A DNA stretch of 64,000 bases, from contig NZ_KB904769.1 in NCBI RefSeq assembly GCF_000380185.1, positions 114,002-178,001 of the forward strand. Reading direction: 5' to 3'. A model generated the notes under the pieces. That model made no database searches, was not told the origin of the DNA, and worked only from the letters and a program-made list of their open reading frames with translations. Both the position numbers and the translations under genes were made by a program. Below, in pieces: positions 5,502 through 47,503 of this stretch; the stretch's first letter is position 1, and each line of letters begins with the position of its first letter. The DNA is from Thiofilum flexile DSM 14609 (lineage in GTDB: Bacteria; Pseudomonadota; Gammaproteobacteria; Thiotrichales; Thiotrichaceae).

Positions 5502-5615
5502 CGGTCGGCAGAACCGAGGCGTCGCTGATCCCGTAAGGGAAGCTAAACCTGCCTGTAATTCGAATAGTCATTGTATTTATTGTTTCTATTCGGTGCAAAG
5601 TCGTAAGACAGCGAC
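5502..5615 (+). promoter_or_regulatory. Candidate structured leader upstream of the DUF2087 gene
   Basis: Several nested pairings are visible before the gene at 5649. CGGT/ACCG forms a small hairpin (5502-5516). GTCGCTG (5521-5527) can pair with CAGCGAC (5609-5615). Inside this outer helix lie TCCC-GTAA-GGGA (5529-5540, a GNRA-type tetraloop) and CGAATAG/CTATTCG (5561-5567 with 5586-5592). The layout resembles a three-way junction. I do not recognise it as a known riboswitch class. Function is inferred only from the potential structure. Confidence 0.35.
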
Positions 5616-9742: not shown

Positions 9743-10696
9743 ATGATGAAAATATTCTCGGATTTAAAAAATAGTTTCGCTTACCTCCTGATGGCTGTAA
9801 GCCTATTAGGGACACCTACAGCGCTGGCTCAAAAACCTACCTTGACCTACCTAAATAGTTTTTCTCTACCAGACTATGAGGTGGATGGTTTGAAGGTGAA
9901 CGAACTGTCGGATTTAGCATGGGATGAAGATGAACAACTACTCTATGCGGTATCCGATAGGGGGATGTTGTTTCAATTTAAAATAGAGCTTACCCACGAT
10001 GCTATCAAGCAGTTTAAACCGATTCATGGCATGATTTTACTTGATCGAAAGGGTAAAAAAGTAGATTGGCGTGATGCGGAGGGCTTAGACGTACTGAAGG
10101 CTAATAATGGCATTAAGGGGGATACCGAGTTAGTGATTGCTTTGGAGGGCGTACCAAGGGTCGGGCGTTTTACACCGCAGGGGCAGTTAATTGCCGAATA
10201 CCCTTTACCTAAGGCGCTGCGCGATCCAAAAAGCTATCGAGCGCGTAACACTATGTTAGAGTCCGTCACTTGGCATCCGAAATGGGGCTATATAACGGCT
10301 CCAGAACAATCCCTAAAAAACCAGCCCATTACTATGCATACCCTCTATAGCCGCAAGAAACATTGGTCGTTTCCAGCGTATCCTGCCACCAATAGTGCGA
10401 TTACGGCTTTGCAAACTTTACCTAATGGTAATTTGTTAGTCTTGGAGCGAGCGTGGTCAGGGGTGATGAATCCTTTGGTGATTAGCTTGCGCTATTTAGA
10501 TTTTCAGCGTTGTGATAAGACAGGTCAGTGCCCTATTGAGAATGTGAGTGTTCTCTCTAGCCTCTTCTTAGTAGATAATTTCGAGGGCTTGACCCATGTG
10601 CGCGATAATCTATATTTGATGGTCAGCGATGATAATCAAAGTCGATTTCAACGTACTTTAATAACCCTATTTCGTTTGGAGTTACCAACACCATGA
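9743..10696 (+). CDS. Secreted esterase-like activity of phytase family protein
   Basis: The protein (317 aa) has a signal peptide (FAYLLMAVSLLGTPTALA, cleavage before QKP). The mature part fits the Phytase-like/esterase-like beta-propeller family: ELSDLAWDEDEQLLYAVSDRG near the N terminus, WRDAEGLDVL, GVPRVGRF and a final NLYLMVSDDNQS. These proteins are periplasmic or lipoprotein-like and their substrates are poorly known. ATG 9743 is chosen because it directly precedes the signal peptide; an upstream in-frame TTG would add 24 residues. The stop codon overlaps the ATG of the HtrA-type protease gene (ATGA), so the two are co-translated. Confidence 0.78.
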   Translation: MMKIFSDLKNSFAYLLMAVSLLGTPTALAQKPTLTYLNSFSLPDYEVDGLKVNELSDLAWDEDEQLLYAVSDRGMLFQFKIELTHDAIKQFKPIHGMILLDRKGKKVDWRDAEGLDVLKANNGIKGDTELVIALEGVPRVGRFTPQGQLIAEYPLPKALRDPKSYRARNTMLESVTWHPKWGYITAPEQSLKNQPITMHTLYSRKKHWSFPAYPATNSAITALQTLPNGNLLVLERAWSGVMNPLVISLRYLDFQRCDKTGQCPIENVSVLSSLFLVDNFEGLTHVRDNLYLMVSDDNQSRFQRTLITLFRLELPTP

Positions 10697-11811
10697 TTGC
10701 TTTTAAGATGCCAGCTTATCTTCTACGACTTGTAGGAGGCGCTATTGTTATTTGGGTAATAGCGATGGTATGGATGGTGTGGGCTAAAGATGTACATAGC
10801 GAAGGTGTACGTGATGTGACAGCACGCGGTAAGCTGACGGCGGATGAGCAAAACACTATTACTGTCTTTGAGCGTAATAGTCCAGCGGTGGTATATATTA
10901 CCACCACGCAAAAGGTGATTAATCCTTGGACACGCAATGTGAATGAAGTACCTAATGGTACGGGAACGGGTTTTATTTGGGATAATAAGGGACATATTGT
11001 TACCAACTATCACGTTATCGAAGGTTATAACGTTGCCAAAGTGCGCATGTCCGATCAGCGCTTATACGATGCCAAATTAGTGGGGGCGAGTCGTGAGCAT
11101 GATTTAGCCGTGTTACGCTTAACTGAGCTAAAAGATTTACCCAAGCCGGTGCAAATTGGTACTAGTCATGATTTAAAGGTGGGGCAAAAAGTCATGGCAA
11201 TCGGTAATCCCTTTGGTCTAGATCACACCTTGACCTCCGGTATTGTTTCCGCTTTGGGGCGCAGTATTGATGGTGATAACAATCAACTCGATGATCTGAT
11301 TCAAACCGATGCCGCGATTAATCCGGGCAATTCCGGCGGGCCTTTACTCGATAGTGCTGGACGTGTCGTGGGCGTGAGTGTGGCGATTTATAGCCCCTCT
11401 GGCGTATCGGCGGGGATTGGTTTTGCCATTCCGGTGGATACAGTGAATCGGGTTATCCCACAGCTAGTACGCTCAGGACGTTACGAGCGTTTGGTGCTAG
11501 GGGTTAGTATTAAAGATGAAGTCAATGCGGCGGTAACGCGCAGACTAGGTGTCAAGGGGATATTAGTACTACAAGTCACTCCGCGTTCACCAGCGGCTGA
11601 TGCTGGGATTATTGGCACGCAATTAGATAATGCGGGGGGGTTGATCCTAGGTGATATTATTCAAGCCATTGATGGCAAACCTGTGACTAAAGTGGCCGAT
11701 ATATCACGCATACTGGATACTTATAAGCGTGGTGATACGGTTAAAGTTAAATTATTACGCGATGGTACGGAACCTGTGGAGGTACGCGTAAAGCTCACCC
11801 AAACCAATTAA
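10693..11811 (+). CDS. DegS/HtrA-type serine protease with one PDZ domain
   Basis: The protein (372 aa) has an N-terminal membrane anchor (VGGAIVIWVIAMVWMVWA), a trypsin-like domain and one C-terminal PDZ domain, the layout of DegS. The catalytic triad is visible: H107 (TNYHVIEG), D137 (REHDLAVLRL) and S214 (NPGNSGGPLL). The PDZ part begins near VLGVSIKDE and includes GLILGDIIQAIDGKPV. By analogy it would sit in the inner membrane facing the periplasm and process a stress regulator such as an anti-sigma factor, but no rseA-like partner lies nearby. It overlaps the esterase-like gene by 4 bp. Confidence 0.9.
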   Translation: MIAFKMPAYLLRLVGGAIVIWVIAMVWMVWAKDVHSEGVRDVTARGKLTADEQNTITVFERNSPAVVYITTTQKVINPWTRNVNEVPNGTGTGFIWDNKGHIVTNYHVIEGYNVAKVRMSDQRLYDAKLVGASREHDLAVLRLTELKDLPKPVQIGTSHDLKVGQKVMAIGNPFGLDHTLTSGIVSALGRSIDGDNNQLDDLIQTDAAINPGNSGGPLLDSAGRVVGVSVAIYSPSGVSAGIGFAIPVDTVNRVIPQLVRSGRYERLVLGVSIKDEVNAAVTRRLGVKGILVLQVTPRSPAADAGIIGTQLDNAGGLILGDIIQAIDGKPVTKVADISRILDTYKRGDTVKVKLLRDGTEPVEVRVKLTQTN

Positions 11812-11847
11812 TAATATTGTCATAATATTTGGCTAAGTAGAGGTATA

Positions 11848-11955
11848 CCAAAGTCATCGGGTATTTCTGGAGCAGTCTTGGCGGCAAGGATGCCGCCTTG
11901 TAGCGTACAGGGATGTATTCACAGCGACTGCGGAGGAAATACCCGATGACTTTGG
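11848..11955 (+). repeat. 108-bp palindromic element, copy 1
   Basis: The ends are 20-bp perfect inverted repeats (11848-11867 with 11936-11955). Inside lie a GCAGTC/GACTGC stem, a 7-bp hairpin GGCGGCA-AGGA-TGCCGCC (11880-11897) and a small TGTA/TACA hairpin. A second copy of exactly the same length lies inverted at 22397-22504. The 88-bp cores differ at two positions, while the outer 10-bp arms differ at four positions, each compensated on the other arm. It sits between the convergent htrA-like and HAD genes. It may act as a bidirectional terminator, a REP/MITE-like element or a structured RNA. Confidence 0.85.
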
Positions 11956-11998
11956 CTCAAGTACTTACTAATGGCTAGTGTAGCCAAACTAGCGAGGG

Positions 11999-12667
11999 CT
12001 AGGGGAGGCCACGTTCGTGTAGATCAATGATAGGCCATTGCCTTTCTTTGGCGACTGCCGTCAATTGAGGGTCGGGATTGACCACAATGGGATAGGTCAC
12101 CATCTCTAATAAGGGCAGGTCGTTGTGTGAGTCACTATAAAAATAGCTACTTTCTAATGTTTCGGCATGATTTTTCAACCAATCTTGTAAGCGTGTCACT
12201 TTACCCCCCTTAAAAGAGGCCACACCTTCGACTTCATTGGTATAACGCCCATTCACTCGCTTAGGCTCGGTCGCGATTAAATGTTCAATACCAAATGCCT
12301 CAGCGATTGGGCGGGTCACAAAGCTATTAGTCGCGGTAATAATCATCAGCGTATGCCCTTGCGCTCTGTGTTTATTAACTAACTCAAGGGCTTTCGGTGA
12401 CATTTTTTCTTGGATGACCGTCGCCATGAATTCGTGGTGCAGTTTATTTAAGGTCTCATCATCATGCTGGCTCAGCGGGGTCAGCGAAAAGCGCGCAAAC
12501 TCATAAATATTGAGCGTACCGGCTTTATATTGCTCATAAAATTCCAAGTTTTTGGCAGTATAAGTCGGCCCATCCACTAAGCCTTTGCGAGCTAAAAACT
12601 GCCCCCACTCAAAATCACTATCCCCATCTAAGAGGGTATTATCTAAATCAAATAATGCTAAGGTCAT
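11999..12667 (-). CDS. HAD-IB family phosphatase (SerB-like)
   Basis: The protein (222 aa) is a haloacid dehalogenase-superfamily phosphatase. Motif I is DLDNTLLDGDSD with the nucleophilic Asp and second Asp, motif II is IITATNSF, the motif III Lys lies in KGGKVTRL, and motif IV is YSDSHNDLPLL. The IB subgroup includes phosphoserine and histidinol-phosphate phosphatases; the substrate here cannot be decided. It is divergent from rppH, an arrangement also known in other gammaproteobacteria. A small GCTAGT/ACTAGC hairpin just beyond its stop may help termination. Confidence 0.85.
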   Translation of the reverse strand: MTLALFDLDNTLLDGDSDFEWGQFLARKGLVDGPTYTAKNLEFYEQYKAGTLNIYEFARFSLTPLSQHDDETLNKLHHEFMATVIQEKMSPKALELVNKHRAQGHTLMIITATNSFVTRPIAEAFGIEHLIATEPKRVNGRYTNEVEGVASFKGGKVTRLQDWLKNHAETLESSYFYSDSHNDLPLLEMVTYPIVVNPDPQLTAVAKERQWPIIDLHERGLP

Positions 12668-21434: not shown

Positions 21435-22382
21435 ATGACTGTTCAATACCACACGGTTTCCGAGCACGAAGCCGGTCAGCGTATCGATAATTTTTTATTA
21501 CGCTATTTTAAAAATGTGCCCAAAAGTGTGATTTACCGCATTATTCGTAAGGGTGAAGTGCGGGTAAATAAAGGGCGTATTAAGCCAGAGCATAAATTGG
21601 CCTTGGGGGAAGTGGTGCGTATTCCTCCGGTTAAACAAGATGAAGTGCCCCAAGATACTAAAGCCGTAGCTGCGCATAGTTTGCTACAACAAATCGAGCG
21701 GGCAGTGATTTTTGAAGATGAGCAAATCATTGCTTTAAATAAACCCGCAGGGATTCCGGTGCATGGTGGAACGGGGCACGAGGTGGGGCTGATTGAAGCG
21801 TTTCGTCAATTGCGCCCGAATTTGCCCTATGTGGAGTTAGTCCACCGCATTGATCGGGATACCAGCGGAGTGGTAGCCCTAGCGAAGTCGCGTGAAGCCT
21901 TGACCCAATTGCATGCTTTAATGCGTGAGGGGGAGGTGGATAAACGTTATCAAACCTTAGTCGCGGGACAATGGCAAGACGGCGTGCAACATATCACGAC
22001 TAATCTAATGCGCGAACATAATGCCGTACGCGGTCACAAAATGCGCGTGCTAGACGATGACGACGAGGGCAAAGAAGCGGAAAGTATTTTTACCCCTAAG
22101 CGCATTATGTCTCAAGCTACTCTCATGGATGTCAAAATCCTCACCGGGCGTATGCATCAGATTCGGGTGCAGTTAGCGCATTTAGGCTATCCGATTTTAG
22201 GGGATGATCGTTATGGTGATTTTGCCCTCAATCGAGAGCTGAAAGCGCTGGGTTTAAAACGGATGTTTTTACATGCCAATCACATGGAGTTTATTTTGCG
22301 CATGACGGGGCGGCGTTATCGCTTAGAAGCGCCTTTGCCTGCTGAATTGCATCATGTGTTGCGTGAGTTGCAAAAGAATTAG
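21435..22382 (+). CDS. rluC: 23S rRNA pseudouridine synthase RluC
   Basis: RluC isomerises uridines 955, 2504 and 2580 (E. coli numbering) of 23S rRNA. The 315-aa protein has an N-terminal S4 RNA-binding domain (residues about 14-75, with NFLLRYFKNVPKSVIYRIIR) and the RluA-family catalytic domain with VHRIDRDTSGVV, where the Asp is the nucleophile. GRMHQIRVQLAHLGYPILGD and the short C-terminal tail match the family. It diverges from rne, a common gammaproteobacterial arrangement. AGGTGAG lies 4 nt before the ATG. A 108-bp palindromic element follows 14 bp after the stop. Confidence 0.92.
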   Translation: MTVQYHTVSEHEAGQRIDNFLLRYFKNVPKSVIYRIIRKGEVRVNKGRIKPEHKLALGEVVRIPPVKQDEVPQDTKAVAAHSLLQQIERAVIFEDEQIIALNKPAGIPVHGGTGHEVGLIEAFRQLRPNLPYVELVHRIDRDTSGVVALAKSREALTQLHALMREGEVDKRYQTLVAGQWQDGVQHITTNLMREHNAVRGHKMRVLDDDDEGKEAESIFTPKRIMSQATLMDVKILTGRMHQIRVQLAHLGYPILGDDRYGDFALNRELKALGLKRMFLHANHMEFILRMTGRRYRLEAPLPAELHHVLRELQKN

Positions 22383-22396
22383 TTGAACCATCTGAT

Positions 22397-22504
22397 GCAA
22401 CGTAAGCGGGTATTTCTTCCGCAGTCGCTGTGAATACATCCTTGTACGCTACAAGGCGGCATCCTTGCCGCCAAGACTGCTCCAGAAATACCCGCTTACG
22501 TTGC
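22397..22504 (-). repeat. 108-bp palindromic element, copy 2 (inverted relative to copy 1)
   Basis: The ends are 20-bp perfect inverted repeats (22397-22416 with 22485-22504). Read on the minus strand, the 88-bp core matches the element at 11848-11955 with two differences, one converting a G-U pair to A-U and one in an internal loop. The outer arm is GCAACGTAAG instead of CCAAAGTCAT, and both versions are perfectly self-complementary. It lies between convergent rluC and thiD, 14 bp and 11 bp from their ends. Confidence 0.85.
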
Positions 22505-22515
22505 TTACCTTACCT

Positions 22516-23286
22516 TTAAATCCGCTTAGGTATCCATTGACCACCACCTAGCGACTCTGCTTGCGCCAAGGTCTGCCATGTATATTGTTGGGCTTGTTCA
22601 AGTGCTGCTTCTAGAGGTAAACCTTGAGCTAAAAAGGCGGTGCAGGCTGATGCTAACGTGCAACCCGAACCATGATAGGTTTCGGGTAAGCGCTCCCATT
22701 CCCATTGTTGGGGGGCTTGCTGAGGCTGATAGAGGCACTGAATCACTTTAGGGGTAGGGGCGTGAGTGCCTGTTAGTAGTACTGCCTTACAGCCAAATTT
22801 TAGTAACACCTGAGCCTGCTCACTGCTAGACGCTTTTGGTAAGGCACTCAGTCGTGCTAATTCCGGTACATTGGGGGTAGTTAAGGTAATGTGGGGTAGT
22901 AACTGCTCCCGTATTTGGGTAGTCAACTGCTGGCTAGCTAAAGAAGTCCCCCCACCCGCCGCTAATACCGGATCGAGTACTTTGGGAATAGAGGGGTATT
23001 TTAGAAGTATCTTTTCCACGATAGGAATTAAATCACTACTACCCAGCAAGCCAATTTTAAGCGCTGCAATCGGCATATCGGCTAATAAGCACTCTAATTG
23101 CACAGCAATAATATCTGGACTAATCGGGAGAGTACGTTTCACATTATGCGTATCTTGCACCGTCAAGCAGGTAATGACAGATATCGCATGGCAACCATTA
23201 GCCGCAAGCGCTTCACTATCCGCTTGAATCCCCGCTCCGCCCGTGGGGTCGTGTCCGGCTAGGACTAATACTACGGGGCGGGTCAT
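22516..23286 (-). CDS. thiD: Hydroxymethylpyrimidine/phosphomethylpyrimidine kinase
   Basis: ThiD phosphorylates HMP and HMP-P to HMP-PP, the pyrimidine half of thiamine. The 256-aa ribokinase-fold protein shows AGHDPTGGAGIQAD at the N terminus, KIGLLGS, LDPVLAAGGG, TPNVPELARLS and the C-terminal catalytic GSGCTLASACTAFLAQG with the anion hole and base. It overlaps thiE by 4 bp and forms the thiED operon. No TPP riboswitch was seen before this operon, unlike thiC. Confidence 0.95.
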   Translation of the reverse strand: MTRPVVLVLAGHDPTGGAGIQADSEALAANGCHAISVITCLTVQDTHNVKRTLPISPDIIAVQLECLLADMPIAALKIGLLGSSDLIPIVEKILLKYPSIPKVLDPVLAAGGGTSLASQQLTTQIREQLLPHITLTTPNVPELARLSALPKASSSEQAQVLLKFGCKAVLLTGTHAPTPKVIQCLYQPQQAPQQWEWERLPETYHGSGCTLASACTAFLAQGLPLEAALEQAQQYTWQTLAQAESLGGGQWIPKRI

Positions 23287-30976: not shown

Positions 30977-32897
<1,921 letters not shown>

Positions 32898-32903
32898 GCG
32901 AGG

Positions 32904-47387: not shown

Positions 47388-47503
47388 GGAGGCTCATATC
47401 GGTTCTCTCGCAATGGTATGTTGTGAACCCCGTCAGGTCCGGAAGGAAGCAGCGGTAACAGCAGATTCATGTGCCGAGATGTGGCTGGTATGAGTCGCCA
47501 CCA
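47388..47503 (+). ncRNA. ffs: 4.5S RNA (small bacterial SRP RNA)
   Basis: The conserved domain IV is exact in character: GTGAACCCCGTCAGGTCCGG followed by AAGGAAGCAGCGGTAACAG, which binds Ffh. The ends pair to form a long hairpin (GGCTCATA near 47391 with TATGAGTC at 47489-47496). It would direct membrane proteins to FtsY and SecYEG. The position just upstream of dnaX is typical for gammaproteobacteria. Ends are estimated to within a few bases. Confidence 0.95.

Follow-up and report, generated by a model that had tools for sequence, protein, structure and literature searches.

A dispersed palindromic repeat of Thiofilum flexile with a YPAL/RU-2-like core and two candidate CsrA/RsmA sites

Two copies of a palindrome in convergent gene gaps

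A 64,000-nt stretch of the Thiofilum flexile DSM 14609 genome (the window) contains two copies of a 108-bp palindrome on opposite strands (11848-11955, +, and 22397-22504, -). What kind of element is it, and which part of it is maintained? The initial annotation described two inverted 108-bp copies with outer arms that differ at 4 of 10 positions, every change being compensated on the opposite arm, and both observations hold. It placed the two core differences in a small hairpin (G-U to A-U) and in an internal loop. They are instead a G/A exchange at element position 63, which is the N of the second apical loop (CANGGANG), and a U.G to U-A change in the innermost pair of the outer stem (position 88). 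The length of 108 bp is correct for both copies, but the unit of copy 1 includes terminal tips and spans 11834-11967; its left tip reaches 2 bp beyond the consensus of its class. Folding energies are about -60 to -65 kcal/mol for either strand of both copies, with z of about -10 to -11 against dinucleotide shuffles and 0/200 shuffles as good. Both copies sit in gaps between convergent genes, 10-44 nt from the gene ends by our gene calls, and the gene 5' of copy 1 stops 22 nt ahead of the left tip. The features are as follows, with gene products read from sequence motifs.

10693-11811, +, gene 5' of copy 1: trypsin-like serine protease with PDZ, DegP/DegS type
11834-11967, +, full copy 1: class 1, tips TAAGTA...TACTTA, ends common to about 45 genome copies
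11848-11868, +, 5' arm of the long outer stem of copy 1: partner 11935-11955 (fold, covariation)
11880-11897, +, hairpin P1 of copy 1: apical loop CAAGGATG at 11885-11892, matching CANGGANG; candidate CsrA/RsmA-type site 1
11906-11917, +, hairpin P2 of copy 1, UACAGGGAUGUA: loop CAGGGATG at 11908-11915, CsrA SELEX consensus; candidate site 2
11935-11955, +, 3' arm of the long outer stem of copy 1 (fold, covariation)
11999-12667, -, convergent gene 3' of copy 1: HAD-type phosphatase
21435-22382, +, gene left of copy 2: RluC/D-type pseudouridine synthase
22397-22504, -, copy 2: class 2, without TAAGTA tips, flanked by convergent genes
22435-22446, -, hairpin P2 of copy 2: loop CAAGGATG at 22437-22444
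22455-22472, -, hairpin P1 of copy 2: loop CAAGGATG at 22460-22467
22516-23286, -, gene upstream of copy 2 on the GGA strand of copy 2: ThiD-type kinase

Site 2 of copy 1 begins 23 nt past the start of site 1. A covariance model of the core (R1) finds both copies in the window (E about 1e-23) and nothing else. Ordinary Rfam matches in the window are a COG3860 RNA (5502-5554, +), a TPP riboswitch (32800-32901, -) and a small SRP RNA (47397-47493, +).

Copies across the genome and their anatomy

Searching the genome with the core pattern identified 89 places, and the reversed-pattern control identified none. In the further copies aligned the arms still pair, and the palindrome is clearly not confined to the two copies from which it was described. 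A similarity search returned at least 40 copies at 88-97% identity, with 119 first-look candidates. The first 30 loci were taken from a BLAST-type search; the pattern used to list the copies left both P2 N positions free and did not include P1.

The anatomy is based on 86 ungapped copies. From the outside inwards, the element consists of a 21-bp outer stem, an asymmetric internal loop (TGGA/GGAA), a six-pair inner stem and two hairpins, P1 (GGCGGC-ANGGAN-GCCGCC) and P2 (GUAC-ANGGAN-GUAU, followed by UUYACAGCG). There are two classes. Class 1, to which copy 1 of the window belongs, has about 45-48 copies that extend to the tips TAAGTA...TACTTA and measure 134 bp. Class 2, with copy 2, has about 38-41 copies that end at the outer stem and measure about 106 bp. 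Several class 1 copies (among them the second copy of L004, and L024, L026, L028, L030, L068, L097 and L143) look as though the palindrome has turned over: their centre is reversed while the asymmetric tips GGTATA/CTCAAG are not. Long-core variants (L126, L131, L165, L169, L170, L171 and L125) carry an additional block of about 55-60 nt 3' of P2. The reverse complement of this block bears CATGGACG and CAGGAACG loops, which resemble the extra hairpins of a long form found in Pectobacterium (loci L235 and L253). In one copy (L150, G000:C10:62333), TTCAC is followed, inside the element, by a fragment that looks like the right end of an IS200/IS605 sequence (GAATCCCCGTCCTTTAGGTCGGGGAGGATGTCAA).

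We considered whether the arms are host terminators captured at insertion. For the T. flexile genome this was rejected: class 2 arms share a common ancestry (consensus AAAAGTAANCGGGTATTTC), pairing ends sharply at the outer end, and apart from deletion derivatives no empty palindromes with the same arms were seen.

Covariation and strand asymmetry

Covariation was measured on 35 aligned, diverged class 2 copies, which are without tips. Stem cells are paired in 97.6% of cases, versus 84.1% after shuffling, and two-sided compensations number 148 cells versus 33, with two-sided changes at 21/21 outer pairs. None of 500 shuffles matches any covariation measure, and shifting the partner abolishes the signal. 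The arms of class 2 copies differ from one another by 36% and the core, less the loop N positions, by 4.8%. Two double compensations at a single locus are seen by eye between orthologous Marinobacter copies (L218 and L261), the flanks of which are 86-88% identical. Of the possibilities first raised, a palindromic mobile element whose paired structure is selected or maintained proves right. The further step of taking covariation as the mark of selection stands only in part. In L137, L140 and L141 the internal loop TGGA/GGAA has become a perfect palindrome in one direction, and in L139 in the other. Block conversions of this kind are as template switching between the arms would give, and covariation alone is therefore no proof of selection.

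Such arm-to-arm copying also fits a structure-specific DNA mobile element, in which a transposase would recognise the GGA strand as ssDNA, the arms would go on pairing because template switches correct them and the strand has to fold, and CANGGANG would belong to the recognition site and resemble a CsrA site by chance. We consider this unlikely, for reasons given with the loops and the tips below.

A stronger sign of single-strand constraint than covariation is the excess of G.U over A.C in the inner stem. Neutral expectation is equal counts of the two. On the GGA strand the inner stem (pairs 13-21) has 84 G.U versus 1 A.C (37 versus 0 in class 2 alone), the arms across genera have 66 versus 19 and those of Marinobacter 29 versus 9, in counts that take related copies as independent, so that p-values are a guide only. 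The excess holds also at copies that are antisense to neighbouring genes. The inner structure thus appears to be constrained as a single strand of GGA sense, whether as RNA or ssDNA, and that the fold of the GGA strand is under constraint we regard as very probable. The asymmetry is compatible with the DNA element as well, since G.T is the best-tolerated mismatch in DNA. The outer stem (pairs 3-12) has 28 G.U versus 21 A.C (10 versus 6 in class 2 alone). Outer arms without strand bias would be expected if both strands mattered, as in bidirectional transcription terminators or mRNA-protecting 3'-end hairpins, a reading to which we return with the gene context.

The fixed part of the core and CsrA/RsmA-type sites

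The core is made of two stem-loops with CANGGANG apical loops. Exactly four core positions vary freely among the 86 copies, and all four are the N of these loops: position 40 (G44/A29/T13), position 44 (T78/A5/C3), position 63 (G41/A40/T4/C1) and position 67 (T53/G19/C13/A1). Deviation from the consensus is 32-34% at the loop N positions, versus 2-3% at other core sites. The invariant part of the element is two CsrA/RsmA-type loops, which the initial annotation could not see. The consensus for RsmE/RsmA is (A/U)CANGGANG(U/A) (PMC6849547). The SELEX consensus for CsrA is RUACARGGAUGU, with ACA and GGA invariant, loops of six nt and AC paired with GU (PMC7652899), and the P2 sequence UACANGGANGUA is a match to it. 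Both hairpins are predicted to present GGA in a loop of about six nt with a closing C-G pair, as in a CsrA/RsmA ligand. P1 stems, with at least six G-C pairs, are stabler than most winners of the SELEX experiment (PMC7652899), which counts against the ligand reading. Site starts are 23 nt apart in 76/86 copies and 22-25 nt apart in most other genomes, which falls in the range of 10-63 nt over which one CsrA dimer bridges two sites (PMC7652899).

The same loops are found across genera. CANGGANG occurs within 75 nt upstream of P2 in 67/79 cross-genus copies, where about 1.3 would be expected, and this 75-nt stretch was outside the search pattern for these copies. The looser CA(N)GGA occurs upstream of the P2 segment in 76/79. 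P1 stems covary freely across genera. In 383 kb of Marinobacter, 55/57 copies have exactly two CANGGANG, and the P2 stem varies with compensation (GUAC/GUAU, CCCC/GGGU, GCAC/GUGC and GCUC/GAGC). Additional GGA hairpins occur on some P1 arms elsewhere (L199, L222, L235 and L238).

Because the parts fixed class-wide are those that CsrA/RsmA reads, while stems, arms and tips are replaceable, we consider the GGA-strand RNA to be probably a two-site CsrA/RsmA ligand, judging from sequence and predicted fold. The same pattern, in which the only fixed residues are loop residues known for CsrA/Rsm and both stems drift, speaks against the DNA element.

T. flexile has a single csrA gene. Among near-complete genomes, csrA is present in 52/53 with the element versus 160/183 without it (p=0.02). 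The comparison agrees with a CsrA/RsmA ligand, but it is confounded by genome reduction and has little weight, as almost every member of the class has csrA. On the other side, among the genomes that are near complete and bear the element, one (G254) has no csrA among the matches listed. A separate hint comes from Pseudomonas putida, in which RsmA, RsmE and RsmI bind several intergenic RNAs at ISPpu8 sites in vivo, and one Rsm-bound RNA is described as a "long palindromic region" (PMC7937890). The unexplained bound intergenic palindromic RNAs in these RIP-seq data (strain KT2440) lie downstream of PP_3547 and at ISPpu8 copies (PMC7937890). It is possible that they are members of the element family.

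Relation to known repeats

The initial annotation knew of no named family with this layout. By its core, the element is almost certainly related to YPAL/RU-2. The Y. pestis RU-2 sequence printed in PMC2759123 contains the P1-P2 core (P1 loop CAAGGATG, together with GAGCCTACATGGATGTATTTACGGCG), and an HMM of our alignment scores RU-2 at 46.4 bits. Rfam Ysr224 (RF02770) matches relatives of the element over its full length, on the opposite strand and below threshold. Like YPAL/RU-2, the element is a palindromic long stem-loop, intergenic and mobile, found 3' of genes and without an autonomous transposase. YPAL/RU-2 repeats are about 130 or 168 bp long and insert shortly past stop codons and at sites of dyad symmetry; the element shares the 3' position in T. 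flexile. It differs from the form of about 168 bp in length (106-134 bp), and otherwise in its arms, which are unrelated, and in the TAAGTA tips on some copies. YPAL has a target-site duplication of 3-26 bp (PMC2229807). No such duplication is present here, and for this reason we file the element as a core relative and not as a strict YPAL. In the T. flexile genome, flank repeats equal those of shuffled pairs, with none beyond chance. In a second genome (G307) nothing longer than TA was found, and a long repeat at L334 was rejected as a target duplication, being a tandem repeat in the target.

The tips recall TA-target MITEs (Tc1/IS630-like), with TATACC...GGTATA in G307, TAAGTA...TACTTA here and a duplication of at most TA. 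Unlike in those MITEs, many copies here, those of class 2, are without such tips, and the tips are host-specific while the core is common. Different transposases are suggested by tips that are wholly different between genomes (TAAGTA..., TATACC... or none), yet the loops are class-wide, which is hard to reconcile with a DNA element read by its transposase. REP/BIME sequences, palindromes of 20-40 bp with a GTAG/CGTC foot, are likewise short palindromic intergenic repeats, and some Marinobacter copies stand in divergent pairs as BIMEs do. The element differs from them in being about 3-5 times longer, in its architecture and in having neither a constant GTAG foot across genera (the GTAG ahead of P2 in T. 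flexile is GAGC in other genera) nor a linked REP-associated transposase (RAYT). A linked RAYT, which the initial annotation suggested looking for, was not found. Fragments of a Y1 transposase (PF01797) occur in the T. flexile genome at contig ends only (L181-L187, on C2, C11, C23, C24, C33, C36 and C47). IS200/IS605-type copies therefore probably break the assembly. The confinement of the Y1 genes to contig ends again tells against the DNA reading.

Distribution and mobility

A scan of GTDB contigs with the P2 segment gave at least 120 places, and the matches listed include Marinobacter, Microbulbifer, Pectobacterium, Catenovulum, Rheinheimera, Sedimenticola, Saccharospirillum, a Pseudomonas, Legionellales and others. 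R1 matches 64/274 gammaproteobacterial genomes. Full counts reach 116 and 128 copies in two Marinobacter, 47 in Pseudomonas sp. WN033 and 15 in Pectobacterium aroidearum. All 16 matches of a phylum-wide search are in Gammaproteobacteria, in a sample for which the share of other classes is not given. In the genus of G307 each genome bears at least dozens of copies, 163 bp in length. A congener of G307 lacks the element at one locus, where the flanks are joined directly. This empty site shows mobility, as a DNA element would require and as our preferred reading of a mobile palindrome also holds.

Searches of PLSDB and INPHARED for carriage on plasmids or phages gave no matches at the sensitivity used; in IMG/VR the element is on two contigs. 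In E. coli it was seen in 5/5426 genomes (H1-H5, wastewater isolates) as single copies with 85% identity to the RU-2 core, four of them on plasmids. One locus (L431, G521:C1:94429-95648) holds six tandem copies in one orientation with a period of about 227 bp, and thus twelve CANGGANG sites at 23-nt spacing. This array looks like a nascent CsrB-like sponge. Shorter tandem arrays were seen at L204, L211 and L432.

Gene context and transcription

In T. flexile the element is found mostly 0-40 nt past stop codons, with 30/78 sites convergent and 10/78 divergent. This 3'-end location is what remains of the suggestion, made from the two window copies, that the palindrome may belong to a terminator family; nothing else was gained for it. 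An intrinsic terminator would be a simple hairpin with a G+C-rich stem and a U-tract behind it. The short T-runs of some class 2 arms (A-tract/T-tract arms) would suit bidirectional terminators or 3'-end hairpins, as would the unbiased outer arms. Set against this, the T-tracts are short or absent, the site context in G307 is like the background, and such a role accounts neither for the two fixed CANGGANG loops nor for a multi-hairpin core that closes a stem of 20-29 bp, nor for element ends that lie outside the stem. We regard it as improbable.

Where the neighbouring genes run in tandem, the sense:antisense counts of the GGA strand are 16:22 in T. flexile, 6:16 in G307, 18:10 in mixed genera and 17:9 for Marinobacter singles. 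A host RNA role through co-transcription was rejected, as the sense bias is inconsistent over the four data sets. The core and GGA are equally intact at antisense and divergent sites, and selection is therefore not tied to local read-through. Having no orientation preference and loops intact everywhere, the element would either give rise to its RNA independently of its neighbours or be constrained in its own multiplication. Random orientation relative to genes, with the core intact in all orientations, is also what a DNA element would be expected to show. In Marinobacter (L403-L422), divergent pairs, minus then plus and 150-300 bp apart, occur in 9/48 intergenic regions (e.g., L403:11151 and 11334; L406:11466 and 11655) and are BIME-like. 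A minus-plus pair presents one GGA strand in sense for either direction of transcription.

Indifference to the orientation of neighbours would also be explained if the copies were dispersed regulatory RNA genes of the CsrB/RsmZ kind, each transcribed from a promoter of its own and retained by the host as a means of titrating CsrA. Like CsrB/CsrC and RsmX/Y/Z, the element has GGA in the loop of consensus hairpins and more than one site per RNA, namely two high-consensus sites per copy; the tandem array in G521 and the annotation of Ysr224 as an sRNA point the same way. Canonical CsrB-type RNAs have many sites and no long closing stem, whereas the element is dispersed and mobile, with two sites at fixed spacing inside such a stem. 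It has no known promoter, and the orientation statistics lend no support to a sponge RNA. Copy numbers near 100 and the insertion ends point to a mobile element. Host-kept RNA genes are therefore, in our view, the least probable of the readings considered.

A mobile palindrome as a candidate CsrA/RsmA ligand

The explanation we favour, with a probability of about 0.6, is a non-autonomous mobile palindrome of the YPAL/RU-2 kind, the one-strand RNA of which binds a CsrA dimer. The RNA would come from read-through of upstream genes and possibly from a promoter of its own. When folded, it would form a long stem (P0) that diverges freely and is closed by the hairpins P1 and P2, with the CANGGANG loops about 23 nt apart, so that one CsrA/RsmA dimer could clamp both sites on one RNA; we infer that binding would follow. 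The constrained part would then be the two-site RNA ligand, while the arms and the element ends turn over. With about 90-130 copies of two sites each, the elements would occupy part of the available CsrA; where a copy lies in a 3' untranslated region, its stem would bear a CsrA clamp. Whether the net effect is mainly that of a sponge or of a 3'-UTR clamp we can propose only tentatively; both effects are inferences, since orientation and loop intactness ignore gene context.

YPAL/RU-2-type repeats have been known since 2006-2007, and we found no explanation of their conserved centre. Our literature search found no paper that combines CsrA and YPAL. Its coverage of subscription journals was thin and priority is not certain, but the match to CsrA/RsmA sites in a YPAL/RU-2-type core seems not to have been noticed before.

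More speculatively, a mobile palindrome may have spread across Gammaproteobacteria as the carrier of a two-site CsrA/RsmA ligand. Its sole conserved cargo would be a decoy for the global post-transcriptional regulator of the host. The amount of free CsrA would then partly depend on how many copies a selfish element has and how strongly they are expressed, and tandem arrays such as that in G521 would become new CsrB-like sponges. If the centre is a CsrA/RsmA ligand, genome parasites are linked to the Csr/Rsm network by a repeat present in about a quarter of the sampled gammaproteobacterial genomes. This could account for part of the unassigned intergenic RNA bound by Rsm/CsrA, and it would suggest a route for the origin of new sponge RNAs.
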